Source: a bacterium (lineage in GTDB: Bacteria > Bdellovibrionota > Bdellovibrionia > Bdellovibrionales > Bdellovibrionaceae). Taken from it: a stretch of 64,000 bases of DNA. The DNA lies in NCBI GenBank assembly GCA_019752925.1, contig JAIELP010000005.1, forward strand, positions 62,001 to 126,000, read 5' to 3'. The notes under the pieces were generated by a model. That model saw nothing but the letters and a program-made list of their open reading frames with translations. It was not told where the DNA came from and made no database searches. The translations under genes were made by a program, and so were the position numbers. Positions 1 to 6,666 of the stretch are shown one piece after another. Each line of letters begins with the position of its first letter. Position 1 is the stretch's first letter.

Positions 1-3000
1 TCGCGATTGTCGAAAAGCTTTGCGAAAAATTCTAAAGAACTGTTCATATTTTTTACAGAATATAAAGCTTTTGCTTTGCCATAATTAACTAATGAACTGT
101 TTTCTATTTGGCCTGATTTCTCCAATAACCAGAGAGCTTTTTCGTAATCAGATTCAGCATCGGCAATCAGAGCTAAATAGTACAAGCCGATAGCGCGATT
201 TTCTTGAGTTGATGATATCTGTAGTGCGAGTTTTTCGGCGTCGTCTAATTTTTTATTTTGAATGCATGCATTTATGCTGGCTGCAGATAGATTTTTAACA
301 TCACATCTGTTTGCTGATGCTGTCGAACGTGTATTAAATGATGATTTTAATGAAATTTCATTAGGGTAGTAAGAATTGAGCTTACTAATATCTGGGTACT
401 TCACGCGCGGCTCCACAGTGTTTTCAATGCTGTGCTCATCCCATGCTATGATGTGGTTTTCATTAGAAGATAACTTTGAAATCTGTTTTAATGCGGAGTT
501 ATTGTTTTTGCGTTTTTCGGCAAAGGGCTCGGTAAGTTTTACTAATTCGGACTTAAGTGTTTTTTTATCTGCAGCACTTAAAGTTTCAGGCAAGGGCATA
601 TTACTGATGGCATCTATAAAGTGTGAGTAGACTCGGTCAATACCCTGTAATCCGCGCAATTGAATGGCATCTGATTTTGACATTTTAATTGCTGAAGAGA
701 AAGCGGTGAAGGCTTTATCCATTTTTTCGGTTTTCATTGCAATCACCATAGAAAATTTGCTTTCACGGGTTTTAACACTTTGGCTGACAAACTCCTGCTC
801 CAGTATCTGTGCCTGAATAAGCCGTGCTTCGGCTCTGAAGTCGGCATCCACAGGACGACTGTTGATTTTTAAACTTAAATTAAATGCTGAGGTGTAATCC
901 TTCTTTTCTAATAATTTTTTAGCCTGATTAATCAGTATTTCGGTAGCAAAAGGTTCTATGTTGGAAGAGAGAATTTGATTTTGTATCTCCAGATATTCAG
1001 AGTTGTTCTGATTATCAAAGGTTTTCATCATCTTAGATAAAATTTCTACTTTTTTAGATTTGTCAGCAATCGCAAAAATTACTTTATAACATTTACGTGA
1101 ATCTGCTAACTGGCGATTGATTTTAAGTAAATCACAGATCAATTCTTGGTGTTTGAGAGCTTGAGCTTTATCAGCGATAACTAAATCCTTTAAAGTACTG
1201 ATTGCTAAATTAATATGGCCTGAATCAACATAGGTTTTTGCGGCTTCTTTAAGTGCGTCTAAATTACGTTTATCGTCGGGATACTGCTTGATAAAAGATA
1301 AACTTAAATTGGCTCCGTTAACATCCAAGCCTTTTGCGTACGATAATGAAATAGCCTGCCAGTAAGCATCCTGTGCCAGCTTGCTTTGTTTGTGTTCTTC
1401 TGAAAACTTAACCAGTAAATCAATTTGCTTTTGAACAGCTAAATTTTTTGAATCTATCTGTATTTGCGAGTAGTGAGATTCTTCTGCAATTTTTTTCAGC
1501 GCCTGCTCTCGCTTAGAATTTGATGTGCGTTTTAAAATATCCTGAGATATTTTTTGGATTGTAACATAATCTTTTTTGATGTTGTAAATATCTAGAACCA
1601 AGTCTTCTGATTTAAGTTTGATCTCTTCAGAGGCTTTGGTCATTAAAGGTTTAACATAGTTGAGTGAAAGATCGTAATCGTTCTGTTTATAGGCGATATA
1701 ACCCAGTTTGTACTGGATTTCGCTAGCGTGTTCTCCTGAGCTAAATTCTTTAATATAGCGTATGCCTAAAGTTTTTTGTTTTTCGGTGTAGGCAGCGTTT
1801 TCTTTTTTATCGAGAATTTTTTCTATAGAAAATAAAGCGGCATATAGCGAATCATGGGCCAGAGCTTTGTCTAAGCCTGGGTGTGTTGAAACCTGTTCGT
1901 AGTTTTGTGCCGCTTGTTCAAATTTAGATTGTTGGAAAAGTAATTCGGCAAATGCGTAACGGGATTTTGAATCGGGTTGTGTAGAGGTGTCGGTTGAAAG
2001 TAGATTTTCAAAGGCCTGTTCAGTTAAAGCTGAAAACTCGGCATTTTTTTTGTTTTTAAGCCAGATTTCCCACCATTTTTTTGAAATCTCTAGGCTCACC
2101 TTACGGAACTCTGTATAGCACGACGGATCTACTTTATCTTTTTTACAGAACTGAGACATTTCAGTTAAGTTTTCGATAACTTTAGGTCTGAGTTTTAGAG
2201 TTTCATTGGTTTCAATTAATTTAGTATAACACTTTGGTGCCTGTGAGCTCAGTGGGTGTGCTTTTATAAACTGGTAAGTAAATACGCTGATCTCTTTAAA
2301 GCGTGAATGTGATTCGTAAAGCCCCGCTAAAGCGATAATAATTTCGCCCAACTCTTCAGGGGTAGTGATTTTTTCGAAAAATCCGTAGACTTCATTAGGT
2401 TCAAGAGTTTCACCTACGAATAATGTTAAATCCCTTAAAGCTTCTTTACGCAGATTGTATTTGCGGTCATTTTTACTATCGGCAGGATTTTGTTTCACAA
2501 CGATAAGCAACTGATCAATGGCTGCATCGGTATTTTTCATATTATATAAACACCAAGCAGATTTATATAAACCATAAGGATAAGCTTTTGAGTTTGGATA
2601 TTTTTCCAGTTGTTTGAATTTTTCAAGAGCTGTATTGAAGTTCTGCTGATTGTAATAGATTTCGCCTAATTCAAGTAAAGCGTCCGGTAAAAGGCTTGAT
2701 CGCTGGTACTGGCTAATAAGTTGAGTGAAAAGGCTTTTAGCTTTTTCTGTTTCTTTCATCTGTAAGCGGGCTAAAGCACTGTTAAACAGTACAAAATCAA
2801 GATCCTCGAATTTAGGGAAGCGGCGTTGGATTTCGTCGTATATTTTAAGAGCATCTTTTAAAGAAGCCTGTGTTTTTTCATTGGCGAAACCTTGCTTTTT
2901 TAAACGGTCCTCAAAGCGCTGGTCTAAGTCGAAGAAGCGTCCTGATTTTGATCTACGCATGTAAAGTTCGGCTAAACGGAAAAGTAAGCTCACTTCTTCC

Positions 3001-3227
3001 GGAGTGTTGTAGTTTTTTTTGATGATCTTTTTCAGGGTATCAATAGCTTTGTTTTCGGTTTTAGTTATTAAAACTTCAGACTGAAAAGATTTTTCCTGAT
3101 TTTTGTCTTCGTTATCTTTAGTTAAAGAAACTTCTGGAAGCAGACCTTTTGTCTCTTCTGATAAAGCTACAGCGTGAGTGGCTGCTAAACTTAAGATAAT
3201 AATCAGGTTCAGAACATGGCGCTTCAT
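1..3227 (-). CDS. Large secreted TPR-repeat protein, partial (3' end beyond window); Agl/Glt-type motor operon
   Basis: The minus-strand frame is open from an ATG at 3227 to the window edge (about 1075 codons) with no stop; the ORF track omits it because it has no end here. The first residues, MKRHVLNLIIILSLAATHAV, read as a signal peptide. After it I see many degenerate tetratricopeptide-type helices, for example LLPDALLELGEIYYNQQNF followed by ALEKFKQLEKYPNSKAYPYG. TPR proteins of this kind are usually periplasmic scaffolds; large TPR proteins accompany TolQ/TolR-type motors in the Myxococcus gliding machinery (AglT and relatives). It starts 11 bases after the upstream ExbD stop, so it is the last visible gene of that operon. 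The exact family and the C-terminus are unknown. Confidence 0.85.
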   Translation of the reverse strand, partial: MKRHVLNLIIILSLAATHAVALSEETKGLLPEVSLTKDNEDKNQEKSFQSEVLITKTENKAIDTLKKIIKKNYNTPEEVSLLFRLAELYMRRSKSGRFFDLDQRFEDRLKKQGFANEKTQASLKDALKIYDEIQRRFPKFEDLDFVLFNSALARLQMKETEKAKSLFTQLISQYQRSSLLPDALLELGEIYYNQQNFNTALEKFKQLEKYPNSKAYPYGLYKSAWCLYNMKNTDAAIDQLLIVVKQNPADSKNDRKYNLRKEALRDLTLFVGETLEPNEVYGFFEKITTPEELGEIIIALAGLYESHSRFKEISVFTYQFIKAHPLSSQAPKCYTKLIETNETLKLRPKVIENLTEMSQFCKKDKVDPSCYTEFRKVSLEISKKWWEIWLKNKKNAEFSALTEQAFENLLSTDTSTQPDSKSRYAFAELLFQQSKFEQAAQNYEQVSTHPGLDKALAHDSLYAALFSIEKILDKKENAAYTEKQKTLGIRYIKEFSSGEHASEIQYKLGYIAYKQNDYDLSLNYVKPLMTKASEEIKLKSEDLVLDIYNIKKDYVTIQKISQDILKRTSNSKREQALKKIAEESHYSQIQIDSKNLAVQKQIDLLVKFSEEHKQSKLAQDAYWQAISLSYAKGLDVNGANLSLSFIKQYPDDKRNLDALKEAAKTYVDSGHINLAISTLKDLVIADKAQALKHQELICDLLKINRQLADSRKCYKVIFAIADKSKKVEILSKMMKTFDNQNNSEYLEIQNQILSSNIEPFATEILINQAKKLLEKKDYTSAFNLSLKINSRPVDADFRAEARLIQAQILEQEFVSQSVKTRESKFSMVIAMKTEKMDKAFTAFSSAIKMSKSDAIQLRGLQGIDRVYSHFIDAISNMPLPETLSAADKKTLKSELVKLTEPFAEKRKNNNSALKQISKLSSNENHIIAWDEHSIENTVEPRVKYPDISKLNSYYPNEISLKSSFNTRSTASANRCDVKNLSAASINACIQNKKLDDAEKLALQISSTQENRAIGLYYLALIADAESDYEKALWLLEKSGQIENSSLVNYGKAKALYSVKNMNSSLEFFAKLFDNR

Positions 3228-3238
3228 TTGATCTCCGC

Positions 3239-3727
3239 TCAGTTACCTGCAACAGTAACTAGTTTTAAATTCGGAAAGCCGGCCTGTGAGGCGGTGTACA
3301 TGACTTTACGTAGAGTTGCGTAGGGAAGTTCTTGATCCGCTTGAAATAAGATACGGCCGAGTTTGTCTTTTGACGTGGATTCGTTGTTGATTTTTTGTAG
3401 TGCAGTAAATAATGGCTTAATAAAGTTGGAATCGTTGTTGTCGATAGAGCCTGATTCAAACTCATTGTTTTTTACATGAGCCAGAATGGTCTGGTCCAAC
3501 TTTAACTCATCCTGACTCAACGAAATTTTAACACCATAAACCGGATTTTTTTCGGTGTTGGATGAAGGAAGTCTCAGTCCCATGACATTTTCAATCTGAA
3601 CTTCAGATGTATTGTAAGTCTGCAATAAGAAAACCAGCAATATGGTAAACATATCTGTCATTGAAGTAATGTTCAGTGCAAAAGTCTGATTTCTTTTTAT
3701 TTCCGGTTTGTATCTGGTTCTACGCAT
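3239..3727 (-). CDS. ExbD/TolR-type motor protein with intact membrane Asp
   Basis: A 162-residue protein with a short basic cytoplasmic N-terminus, one membrane helix (about residues 20-38) and a periplasmic domain, the normal ExbD/TolR plan. The helix contains TSMTDMFTILLVFLL; Asp25 sits where ExbD/TolR/MotB proteins carry the proton-accepting Asp. These proteins form the peptidoglycan- or partner-binding rotor/stator part of proton-driven TolQR/ExbBD/AglRQS complexes. It starts directly after the stop of the other ExbD gene (no intergenic bases) and is followed by the TPR gene after 11 bases. By order it would match AglS or AglQ of the Myxococcus motor, but I cannot decide which. Confidence 0.85.
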   Translation of the reverse strand: MRRTRYKPEIKRNQTFALNITSMTDMFTILLVFLLQTYNTSEVQIENVMGLRLPSSNTEKNPVYGVKISLSQDELKLDQTILAHVKNNEFESGSIDNNDSNFIKPLFTALQKINNESTSKDKLGRILFQADQELPYATLRKVMYTASQAGFPNLKLVTVAGN

Positions 3728-4273
3728 TTAGCCCTCCAGCGTATTAGCAAAAATGACTTCGGGGAACATATAGTCGGTATTGCTCAATTGACCTGTTTTT
3801 TCGTCTTTCACCGGAAAGCGGATGTCATTGGATTTGGTTTTACGAACTTCGTCCATGATTTTAACAATATCTTTGTAGCTGACATCAGCTGAGGGATTAA
3901 ATTCTATTTTAAAAATTTCTGGATGTAGCTTTTTAATTTCTTGAATTGCTAAATGAATTTTTTCAAAATCAAATTCGTTTTTAGGCAGCATTGAAATTTG
4001 TTTTATCTTTTCGTTCCCGGCTTCGTTAACAATAATATTAACACCTTGCTTTTTATCGATCTCCATACTGATTGTCACTTTAGGATTTATGTCCTGTTTA
4101 GCTAAGGCCTGCTGAACCACCTGGGGTAGTTCAGTTTCTATAATCATCATTTGTACGAATGCTGAAGATACAAGTAACACGGGTACAAGTTTAACCATTA
4201 CGGCCAGCAACGGCGCCAGATCCAGCTCGAATTCGGAATTGTGATTGATGTTGGGTTTATAGCGTCCTGCCAT
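3728..4273 (-). CDS. ExbD/TolR-type protein lacking the proton-carrying Asp
   Basis: A 181-residue single-pass protein of ExbD/TolR shape: polar N-terminus, one helix around residues 19-40, then a periplasmic domain ending in a region like the TolR fold (SYKDIVKIMDEVRK). In the helix, LDLAPLLAVMVKLVPVLLV aligns to the usual TPMIDVMLxLLIIFMV pattern, which puts Ala24 in place of the conserved Asp and adds a Lys (Lys28) inside the helix. It probably cannot carry protons itself and may pair with the Asp-bearing paralogue encoded immediately downstream. It sits 9 bases after the TolQ-type gene. The family call is firm; the consequence of the missing Asp is inference. Confidence 0.82.
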   Translation of the reverse strand: MAGRYKPNINHNSEFELDLAPLLAVMVKLVPVLLVSSAFVQMMIIETELPQVVQQALAKQDINPKVTISMEIDKKQGVNIIVNEAGNEKIKQISMLPKNEFDFEKIHLAIQEIKKLHPEIFKIEFNPSADVSYKDIVKIMDEVRKTKSNDIRFPVKDEKTGQLSNTDYMFPEVIFANTLEG

Positions 4274-4282
4274 AATGACTCC

Positions 4283-4999
4283 TTAAGATACTTTCGTATT
4301 GGTTGGAGGAGGTGCGGCTTTGCCGTTTTTCAAATTCGGATTTTCGGGATAAACCAATTCTTTATTTAGACCCTGCATGTGCGAATTAGTGAGAACCTCG
4401 GTTAGTTTAGAACATTTTTCGGTTAACTGTTCGAGTAATTCATTTTGTTTGGAGGTTAAAAATGAGAAGGCCACCATGGCCGGAATTGCAACCGCTAATC
4501 CTAAAGCTGTCGTATACATCGAAACGGCGATACCACTGGCTAACATGGCTTGTTTTTGTGCGGGATCGGCTTGGGCTACCGCTTGGAAGGAAAGAATAAG
4601 ACCATGAATGGTACCTAACAGACCAAGAAGGGTGGCCACGTTGGCTAGCATCGATAAATAGTGAAGACGTTTTGTGTAAAGAGGAACGATTTCAGCCATG
4701 GCTATATCTTGAGCCTGAAAAATTGTTTCATCATCACGGTCGGATTTTTCTAGAATAACTTTAAAGGCTTTGGCTAATGGTTTATCTTCCATCTGTGCGC
4801 ATAATACGATAGCTTCTTCGTGCTTGCGGCCTAGAACAAAACTTTGTACTCGGCTTGTGAATTCATCTACGTTCAGGGCATATTTAAAATACAGCGTGCG
4901 AGAACGCTCGATGATGAGTGCTATTACAACAGCACCGGTAAACATAATGATCCAACCTACTACACCTGATTGTACTACGAAGTTTAAAAAACCTGACAT
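4283..4999 (-). CDS. MotA/TolQ/ExbB-type proton channel (AglR-like)
   Basis: A 238-residue inner-membrane protein with the TolQ/ExbB layout: one N-terminal helix (VGWIIMFTGAVVIALIIE), a cytoplasmic region, then two adjacent helices (LSMLANVATLLGLLGTIHGL and ASGIAVSMYTTALGLAVAIP). The GLLGTIHGL and ALGLAVAIP stretches are the family signature. With ExbD-type partners it forms a proton-motive-force-driven motor that acts on periplasmic or outer-membrane partners. The ribosome-binding site GGAGGA lies just before the ATG. The order TolQ-ExbD-ExbD-TPR resembles AglRQS plus a TPR partner of myxobacterial gliding; this analogy is inference, and a Tol-Pal role is less likely because no tolA, tolB or pal follows. 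Confidence 0.9.
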   Translation of the reverse strand: MSGFLNFVVQSGVVGWIIMFTGAVVIALIIERSRTLYFKYALNVDEFTSRVQSFVLGRKHEEAIVLCAQMEDKPLAKAFKVILEKSDRDDETIFQAQDIAMAEIVPLYTKRLHYLSMLANVATLLGLLGTIHGLILSFQAVAQADPAQKQAMLASGIAVSMYTTALGLAVAIPAMVAFSFLTSKQNELLEQLTEKCSKLTEVLTNSHMQGLNKELVYPENPNLKNGKAAPPPTNTKVS

Positions 5000-5048
5000 G
5001 TATCCTCCTTGATTAGTAACTAGCTATTCCTCAGCTAATAAAATTTAA

Positions 5049-5606
5049 TTATGCAGCTTTATCGATCCACTTTTTGATCTGTTCAACACCTATATTTTGT
5101 ATTTCATTAAATCGAACAGCATAGTAAAGTCCTGATTTAGAATTTAAACGTTGTTTGGAATAATTTTTACGTATAATTTCGCATTCTACGTTAAACGAAT
5201 CACTATCAACCGGTTTAACATGAATTTTAATCTGATCACCGACTTGAACAAGTGGAGAATTTAACAAGCAAAGTGCGCCACTTTCAGATATCGATACAAT
5301 TTCACCGTCAAAAAAGCGTATTGAGTTGTGACCGATAATTGGAATTTTAACTTCTACGCGCTGACCTTTACGTTTGATAAATGAAGACAAGTATTCAGAT
5401 TCTTTTTGCAGTAATAATTCAAAGCGATCTTTGCTGAACTCTTCCAGTTGGTAAATAGGTGTCCAGGCTTCCAGATGTTCAGCCCATACGTAGTTAAAAT
5501 CCATTAGCTGGTTGGACTGGATCATCTGAATTACGGTTTTATAATCATAAGGACCGTATTTTTGTTCACCTATTAAGACAAACCAAGATGTGTTTTCGCT
5601 TTTCAT
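5049..5606 (-). CDS. GYF_2 plus PilZ two-domain protein
   Basis: I start at the ATG at 5606 (AGGAG seven bases upstream) rather than the track's longer start; this gives 185 residues. Residues 8-58 (WFVLIGEQKYGPYDYKTV onward) match the GYF_2 (DUF4339-type) fold often found at the front of bacterial regulatory or membrane proteins. Residues about 73-180 are a PilZ domain: R79-KGQ-R83 fits RxxxR, and S105-I-S-E-S-G110 is the second motif with Ser in place of the usual Asp/Asn. PilZ domains bind cyclic-di-GMP, so this cytoplasmic protein could tie the downstream TolQ/ExbD motor to that messenger. The changed first residue of the second motif may weaken binding. Confidence 0.8.
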   Translation of the reverse strand: MKSENTSWFVLIGEQKYGPYDYKTVIQMIQSNQLMDFNYVWAEHLEAWTPIYQLEEFSKDRFELLLQKESEYLSSFIKRKGQRVEVKIPIIGHNSIRFFDGEIVSISESGALCLLNSPLVQVGDQIKIHVKPVDSDSFNVECEIIRKNYSKQRLNSKSGLYYAVRFNEIQNIGVEQIKKWIDKAA

Positions 5607-5616
5607 CCGCAATCTC

Positions 5617-6666
5617 CTAGTTAACACTTTCAGGGTCAAAGTTAATTGTTACGTTGGCGCCAGCACTTGGCACGTAAGTACCATGTATTGAAACCGAATT
5701 GGTTACTGAATCATAAGTCCAACCATTAGTTGCATCCTGAGGAACAACCACTCCTTCACTGATCACGCGTATTGAGGAAAGTATCGGTGTGCGTGTTAAG
5801 AAGAATTGCGCTTTAATTTGGTCGGCAATGTGAGTACTGATATTGTTCAGCACTGTATCGAAGTTAGAGCACAGTGAATTTTTAGACCCGCCGGTAGCAT
5901 CGGCCAATTGCATATAACGAGTGCCGATTTTGCGTCCCGATCCTAAAGCTGAACGACAGGTGGCATCTAAAATTGAAATAGTGGAAACTGCAAAGTCAGT
6001 AATGGCTTTCCCACTGGTAAATGTTTCTAAAAAGGTTTTATAACTCGTTACTGAATGTAATGTAGGCTGTGAGTAAGACTCGTTTAAATTAATATCGTCA
6101 TGCGAAAAATCTTCCTCATCCGAAACTATAATAACTGAAAGATAAGCAGAGCTGCGGTGAAAGCCTGTGTTGTAAGAGCTATTAAGTGCAGCTTTAAAGC
6201 TCGAGAAAGCACGTTCGTCTCCGCTACCGCTGGTACCAACATTTACATTTTGTGCAAACACAGATTCTAGATTGGGTGTGTTGGTATCGATTACATAAAT
6301 TCTTGGTGTGGTTCCAGATCTGAATCGTGCTTGTTGGGTATTGCAAAGTGAACAGCCTGAAGTTACGAACTGATCACCGTAAAAGGCATCACTTGTAGTG
6401 ACTGCAATTTTAAAATCGTAGCCGCGGTTTTTAAAGTAGTTAATAAATGACGGAAAATTATTGGCTAAGCTGGTTTGTGATGAACTCATTGAGCCGGAAT
6501 TGTCCACAACAAACAAAACGTCAAGTTTGCGCGGTTCAAATGTGGCTTGCTGCTGGTATTGGGCTGATTCGGATAAAACCGAAAACTGACTTCCACCTTT
6601 ATCGCAAGCAGACAATAGCAATAGCGAACTCATCATACTGATGTGTGCTAAAGGGTTTAAGTTCAT
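5617..6666 (-). CDS. von Willebrand factor A domain lipoprotein
   Basis: I chose the ATG at 6666 because AGGAGG lies seven bases upstream and the product then begins with a lipoprotein signal (LLLLSA-C21). The result is 349 residues. The VWA domain starts at about residue 47 with KLDVLFVVDNSGSM, giving the MIDAS signature D55-x-S57-x-S59; the later SVIIVSDEEDFS segment is the usual central strand and metal-site loop. Such lipoproteins bind ligands or partner proteins through a metal ion in the periplasm or at the cell surface. It is the first gene of the envelope-motor operon, with 10 bases to the GYF-PilZ gene. Its ligand is unknown. Confidence 0.85.
   Translation of the reverse strand: MNLNPLAHISMMSSLLLLSACDKGGSQFSVLSESAQYQQQATFEPRKLDVLFVVDNSGSMSSSQTSLANNFPSFINYFKNRGYDFKIAVTTSDAFYGDQFVTSGCSLCNTQQARFRSGTTPRIYVIDTNTPNLESVFAQNVNVGTSGSGDERAFSSFKAALNSSYNTGFHRSSAYLSVIIVSDEEDFSHDDINLNESYSQPTLHSVTSYKTFLETFTSGKAITDFAVSTISILDATCRSALGSGRKIGTRYMQLADATGGSKNSLCSNFDTVLNNISTHIADQIKAQFFLTRTPILSSIRVISEGVVVPQDATNGWTYDSVTNSVSIHGTYVPSAGANVTINFDPESVN

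Follow-up and report, generated by a model that had tools for sequence, protein, structure and literature searches.

The closest described relatives of the locus studied here are the agl operons of Bdellovibrio bacteriovorus and the AglRQS-Glt machine of Myxococcus xanthus. B. bacteriovorus HD100 carries four agl sets, Bd0412-0420, Bd0828-0838, Bd1473-1483 and Bd2368-2377 (PMC2797640), and in a 2026 review the motor, the adhesins and the force path of Bdellovibrio gliding are still called unidentified (PMC13104615). We analyzed a 64,000-base stretch of a Bdellovibrionaceae genome (the window; bases 62001-126000 of contig JAIELP010000005.1; assembly of 2.74 Mb in 14 contigs, 94% complete), which begins with part of an operon on the minus strand. 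Judged from its sequence and gene order, this operon is the orthologue of Bd1473-Bd1483, PilZ and VWA genes included. Operons of this type, among them that of the window, are referred to as set I. A sequence-only reading of the window had described an AglRQS-type set with additional PilZ and VWA parts. Both parts are present, but they are not new: the operon was known beforehand with both genes as one of the four published agl/gliding operons of B. bacteriovorus, the PilZ gene as Bd1482 (PMC3271064) and the VWA gene as Bd1483 (PMC2277423, PMC11003981). In gene content the window operon does not stand out from the known operon to which it is orthologous; its motor variant, in which the ExbD pair has one proton site, is distinctive and fixed.

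All ten genes recur in HD100 with order and strand unchanged, at 1.40 Mb on the minus strand (locus L163). The AglR of HD100 is 66% identical to that of the window, both fall into the same AglR clade, and sequence divergence was the only difference seen between the two operons. By position and content, the HD100 sets correspond to L167 (Bd0412-0420), L168 (Bd0828-0838, the type called set III), L163 (Bd1473-1483) and L169 (Bd2368-2377). The synteny comparison suggested by the sequence-only reading showed consistent co-occurrence of the cluster, with the same ten-gene order in nearly all of 26 Bdellovibrionaceae loci and an altered head in other families of the order; given this shared gene order, the operon is not a product of chance. 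In a tree built from 57 AglR-like proteins, the set I AglRs of Bdellovibrionaceae, including those of the window and HD100, form a clade (support 100/100) apart from the three other HD100 sets. The operons of other families join this clade at 100/95, and set I is split from the TolQ and ExbB of the window's own genome at 100/99. Neither inconsistent co-occurrence nor an ordinary Tol-Pal or TonB placement, the two outcomes named in advance as speaking against an AglRQS-type set, was found, because the synteny is consistent and AglR stands apart from TolQ/ExbB.

With the AglRQS-Glt machine of M. xanthus and its CglB, set I shares one TolQ-like and two ExbD-like genes, GltG, GltC, an outer-membrane barrel, TPR partners and a VWA lipoprotein. 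The Glt partners bear out the assignment to the AglRQS type. The C-terminal AgmX/PglI domain of the GltG-like protein (112 bits, cut-off 40) and the barrel (OMP_myx_plus, 85 bits, cut-off 60) pass their cut-offs; the scores for the NCBIfam equivalogs GltG (154 bits, cut-off 650) and GltC (92 bits, cut-off 450) mark these two proteins as relatives, not equivalogs. No GltH, GltI, GltJ or GltK was found in the set I operon, whose only links to them are a tail domain shared with GltJ and a GYF domain similar to that of GltJ; the four proteins are absent from HD100 too (Luciano et al., PMC3169522). The systems differ further in that set I AglR belongs to a clade apart from the sampled myxobacterial relatives, in that the VWA gene lies inside the set I operon and in that the first ExbD of set I lacks Asp. 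The GYF domain is carried by the PilZ protein in set I, whereas in M. xanthus it is found on GltJ.

Set I AglR is present in 63 of 66 Bdellovibrionaceae genomes and in 52 of the 53 good-quality ones, as a single copy each; B. exovorus is the only good-quality genome of the family without it. Set III of HD100 is likewise of the Agl/Glt type and near-universal in the family (63/66), with the window's genome as the only good-quality one lacking it. It differs from set I in grouping with Myxococcota, in keeping Asp in both ExbDs and in having neither a GYF-PilZ gene at the locus nor an AglR tail. Sets II and IV together are patchy (52/66 genomes). Of the four candidate gliding sets, the survey leaves I and III as the two that are near-universal.

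One proton site in the set I ExbD pair

In ExbD-type subunits a single transmembrane Asp binds the proton, and this residue has been described as essential in MotB/ExbD/TolR (PMC12204202). The operon encodes two such subunits beside the AglR (TolQ-like) channel subunit, the Bd1481 orthologue (4283..4999, minus strand; Pfam MotA_ExbB, 90 bits). The first ExbD, orthologous to Bd1480, occupies the AglQ position (3728..4273, minus strand; Pfam ExbD, 60.8 bits) and the second the AglS position (3239..3727, minus strand; Pfam ExbD, 62.8 bits). In the window the proton site of the first ExbD reads PLLAVMVKLVPVLL, with Ala in place of Asp. All 30 Bdellovibrionaceae set I loci lack the Asp in the first ExbD (Ala in 26, Ser in 4) and have Lys at +4 from the column of the lost Asp (30/30); the second ExbD keeps its transmembrane Asp in every one of the 30. 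With the proton-carrying Asp gone from the first ExbD, the set I ExbD pair in Bdellovibrionaceae has one proton site, not two. We had expected Asp in both ExbDs of an Agl/Glt system, an unpublished criterion of our own, and set I departs from it. As far as we found in the literature readable without a subscription, the fixed loss of Asp in the first ExbD is new.

Sets II-IV carry Asp in both ExbDs (17/17 pairs). Across 127 Agl-type loci, the residues of the first and second ExbD were Asp/Asp in 66, Ala/Asp in 30, Asn/Asp in 24 and Ser/Asp in 7, with Asp at the second site throughout (127/127). The first-site residue changed at least seven times on a quick AglR tree. Outside set I, Asn or Ser occupies the proton site in 27 of 98 first ExbDs, and all but one of the second ExbDs have Asp (103/104). 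First ExbDs with Asn or Ser occur in other phyla, for example at the Agl-type loci L097, L101, L102, L128, L140 and L155. Since the first site has been lost repeatedly in other phyla and the second almost never, the two ExbDs would be non-equivalent in Agl-type motors.

Our model of the motor is tentative. It would work with a single proton site and consist of an AglR pentamer and a heterodimer of one Asp-bearing ExbD and one Asp-less, Lys-bearing ExbD acting inside it, with the GYF-PilZ protein as a built-in clutch that responds to cyclic di-GMP (c-di-GMP) on the Pro-rich tail of AglR. It is rather doubtful that the two ExbDs form separate homodimers instead, of which the Asp-less one would be non-conducting and serve a regulatory or plugging role; this alternative concerns the stator step only and is compatible with gliding. 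The loss of Asp together with the invariant Lys could seal the pore, but Agl loci have the two ExbD genes side by side in a fixed order, and the Asp has been lost repeatedly (7 changes on the AglR tree) while the gene was retained. The one-Asp pair bears on the stepping of pentamer:dimer motors: if the motor works on one proton site, two sites need not alternate.

GYF-PilZ protein, AglR tail and operon head

The GYF-PilZ protein (5049..5606, minus strand) matches Pfam GYF_2 and PilZ above cut-off. Its orthologue Bd1482 was noted earlier as a PilZ gene that stands at the 5' end of a gliding operon and whose product may act as a c-di-GMP receiver (PMC3271064). All 19 GYF-PilZ proteins compared have the RxxxR motif without exception; in the DxSxxG motif, Asp is replaced by Ser in Bdellovibrionaceae and mostly by Glu in other families. 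For a profile of the GYF-PilZ family, the best solved structure was the GYF domain of GltJ/AgmX (7z3c, E value 2.4e-6), and structure comparison of an AlphaFold model (predicted local distance difference test score 76, only 4 sequences) also recovered the GltJ GYF domain. The PilZ part of the model was nearest to MotI, MapZ, BcsA, Alg44 and YcgR. MotI and FlgZ work on stator units (PMC8203827), and we propose that the GYF-PilZ protein is a c-di-GMP-responsive motor regulator. It would resemble MotI/DgrA and YcgR, the c-di-GMP brakes on MotA stators, in its PilZ fold, its RxxxR motif and a likewise proposed target from the MotA superfamily. It differs from them in its GYF domain, which replaces the N-terminal domain of YcgR, in its degenerate DxSxxG motif and in the target itself.

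The C-terminal tail of AglR (4286..4390, minus strand; PPP...KVS, predicted to be cytoplasmic) may serve as ligand of the GYF domain in GYF-PilZ, the product of the neighboring gene. Set I tails have a median length of 34 residues and contain Pro-Pro in 35 of 46 proteins, compared with a median of 10 residues and Pro-Pro in 1 of 106 for other AglR-like proteins. The tail is present at 43 of 44 loci with GYF-PilZ and missing at the loci without it, L064 and L084 (Fisher P 0.003, a value uncorrected for kinship that rests on few events, with L084 checked at the locus only). A long AglR tail confined to set I and usually bearing Pro-Pro is, as far as we found, new as a candidate GYF ligand. At L064 the short GYF-PilZ gene is absent from the operon and AglR ends exactly where the Pro-rich tail would begin; this genome (G019) retains a long GYF-GYF-PilZ gene outside the operon, and the large TPR protein of L064 is shorter (882 residues).

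The survey also offers a natural deletion and a detached part of the operon for testing. In B. exovorus the same neighbors (YceI, LysR, MazG and YbeY) lie on either side of only one operon gene, GYF-PilZ, and the nine others are gone; the machine is therefore dispensable for an epibiotic predator. The remaining gene (L221:12397-12954) is an intact open reading frame (ORF) of 185 codons whose product is 58% identical to that of the window. Its interpretation as a broken gene with 3 stops was rejected, since the ORF is intact and the stops fall where the model overreaches it. A link between loss of set I and epibiotic life was rejected as well, because the epibiotic Candidatus Bdellovibrio qaytius (Ca. 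B. qaytius) retains all ten genes (L046). The assumption that GYF-PilZ serves only the set I motor is weakened by its retention in B. exovorus without the motor. As far as we found, the clean loss of nine genes with GYF-PilZ kept is new.

In other families a longer GYF-GYF-PilZ protein is encoded at the operon head, often together with a VWA gene. Its relative in Bdellovibrionaceae sits away from the operon; in HD100 it lies beside a VWA gene at 3.008-3.010 Mb, and this pair is Bd3100-Bd3099 by position and published annotation (PMC2797640, PMC9140294). The detached GYF-GYF-PilZ nests among the operon-head forms in the tree. Bd3099-Bd3100 combines the same two protein types, VWA and GYF-PilZ, as set I and is detached from motor genes in Bdellovibrionaceae, whereas related genes stand at the operon head in other families. 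On these comparisons the pair looks like a detached operon head, which is new as far as we found. Induction of bd3099 on surfaces coincides with that of bd1480 (PMC9140294), so the Bd3099-3100 pair may be part of the machine encoded by set I.

VWA lipoprotein and proposed function of the machine

The first gene of the window operon encodes a VWA lipoprotein with a metal ion-dependent adhesion site (MIDAS), the Bd1483 orthologue (5617..6666, minus strand; start Met at 6666, ORF open from 6726). It carries the lipobox LSAC and a DxSxS motif. The VWA domain is weak by Pfam and clear in the AlphaFold model and by Foldseek (best match integrin beta headpiece, E value 6e-8). Scores for CglD (55 bits, cut-off 400) and for the NCBIfam family MIDASAdhsBdello (NF052240; 64 bits, cut-off 700) stay below cut-off; with MIDAS adhesins of the Bd0875 type the protein has the lipobox and the VWA fold in common, but not a score sufficient for their family. 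We propose that it is a surface adhesin. At L067:16397-19001 (family f4), two tandem VWA lipoprotein genes follow the operon.

With some reserve, we lean towards set I being a complete Agl/Glt machine that drives or steers slow surface gliding. The machine is proposed to be proton-driven, to span the envelope and to end in a surface adhesin. Proton flow through AglR would turn or rock the ExbD pair. The GltG-like transducer, which is of the TonB type, and the TPR proteins would relay the force to the barrel in the outer membrane and to the VWA adhesin, which, by analogy with M. xanthus, would grip and then release the substrate. The GYF domain of GYF-PilZ would dock on the Pro-rich AglR tail, and the PilZ domain of this protein, on sensing c-di-GMP, would engage or disengage the motor in the manner of MotI and YcgR on MotA. 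In B. bacteriovorus, transposon hits in Bd1481 (aglR) and Bd1483 reduced biofilm predation (PMC2277423). Expression of bd1480 rises on surfaces and falls without the cyclic GMP-AMP enzyme Bd0367, which controls gliding (PMC9140294).

Several points weigh against this interpretation or its parts. On phylogenetic grounds, Luciano et al. favored Bd0828-0838 as the set for gliding (PMC3169522), and in our tree set III AglR groups with Myxococcota AglR-like sequences at 98/95. A clean set I deletion assayed for gliding was not found in the literature. Binding of c-di-GMP by GYF-PilZ is uncertain because the second PilZ motif lacks its Asp, and B. exovorus kept GYF-PilZ alone, so that this protein has another partner or role. 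The losses of tail and GYF-PilZ amount to two or three events only, and the AglR tails of family f10 and L066 have no Pro-Pro despite the presence of GYF-PilZ. The arrangement of both ExbDs as one heterodimer within the AglR pentamer is an assumption.

The same components could form an Agl/Glt envelope machine for other work, for example the transport or arrangement of surface polymers or lipoproteins, which we regard as possible but on the unlikely side. In M. xanthus, Nfs is the relative nearest to Glt and functions in sporulation (PMC3169522). Expression of the operon goes up in host-independent growth and down in early predation (PMC2797640), and four sets in one genome imply separate tasks. 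However, a VWA surface lipoprotein is also part of myxobacterial focal adhesions, and the surface induction of bd1480 goes along with gliding control (PMC9140294). The sequence-only reading had proposed a motor for motility or invasion. Gliding remains the best interpretation and fits this induction, whereas a motor for invasion of prey or exit from it is improbable. In favor of such a motor, predators carry the operon, its loss could be masked by other sets, and the epibiotic B. exovorus deleted it; yet a Bd1483 deletion mutant of HD100 invades normally (PMC11003981), transposon mutants in Bd1481 and Bd1483 still form haloes (PMC2277423), and the operon is complete in Ca. B. qaytius, an epibiotic species as well.

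An ordinary Tol-Pal or TonB-ExbBD system, to which the TolQ/ExbD homology and the TonB_C-like C terminus of the GltG-like protein might point, has next to no probability. Scores fall far under the cut-offs for tolQ (67.5 bits, cut-off 221), tolR (27.4, 127), ExbB (48.6, 206) and ExbD (29.6, 153). The window's genome has two other TolQ/ExbB-ExbD loci elsewhere, from which set I is separated at the 100/99 split, and Pal, TolB and a TonB receptor are all absent from the operon. Equivalog scores, AglR phylogeny and operon content together refute a Tol-Pal or TonB identity.

The lack of set III in the window's assembly most likely reflects an assembly gap, because three proteins encoded next to set III in relatives, RpoN, MetK and PyrG, were not found in this assembly either, in searches run without a positive control of their own. 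Low sensitivity is an unlikely cause, since the set III-flank proteins are 84-90% identical between B. exovorus and genome G004. The argument that set I suffices because the window's genome has no other set was rejected on the same ground, with these three proteins also missing from a 94%-complete assembly. In B. exovorus, G004, Ca. B. qaytius and HD100, set III lies between Kds genes and LptB-RpoN (L168, L170, L173, flanks L234-L241; names from ORF reading), apparently a neighborhood of lipopolysaccharide biogenesis.

Remaining genes and flanks of the operon

The ORFs of the window confirmed six densely spaced genes on the minus strand, with intergenic gaps of 10, 49, 9, 0 and 11 bases, and Pfam recovered ExbD twice, MotA_ExbB, PilZ with GYF_2, and TPR. 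The six genes had been taken for a complete envelope machine. They are real, but they are the left-truncated part of an operon of ten: the adjacent contig sequence left of base 1 supplied four further genes on the same strand. These encode the GltG-like protein (474 residues), the outer-membrane barrel (264 residues), the GltC-like protein (667 residues) and a coiled-coil protein (216 residues), and complete the operon. The large TPR protein (1..3227, minus strand; Pfam TPR families), probably periplasmic, continues for 402 bases past base 1; 1075 of its 1209 residues are encoded inside the window. A gap of ~310 bases separates its gene from that of the GltG-like protein and may have room for an internal promoter.

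To the left of the operon lie LysR and HD-domain genes and to its right MazG and YbeY, as assigned by reading ORFs. No Rfam match to an upstream riboswitch was obtained, promoter-like sites were no more numerous than in shuffled sequence, and plasmid comparison gave no match. Terminator-like sites numbered 20 versus 12 expected, none of them tied to the operon end. In L067, L068, L073, L075 and L077, the counterpart of the large TPR protein is split into adjacent ORFs of ~970 and 220-320 residues, the smaller of which matches GltE weakly in L075. The large TPR protein thus resembles a fusion product of two TPR proteins whose genes are separate in other families.

In genomes G053 (L225) and G038 (L226), GYF-PilZ, TPR, GltG-like and barrel genes are present and a set I AglR was not found there; another AglR may serve, or the assemblies may have a gap. 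A further Agl-type set, set V, forms a long-branched clade of its own at L174 (Ca. B. qaytius) and L180, with a VWA gene nearby and, on the opposite strand, an ORF weakly similar to GYF-PilZ.

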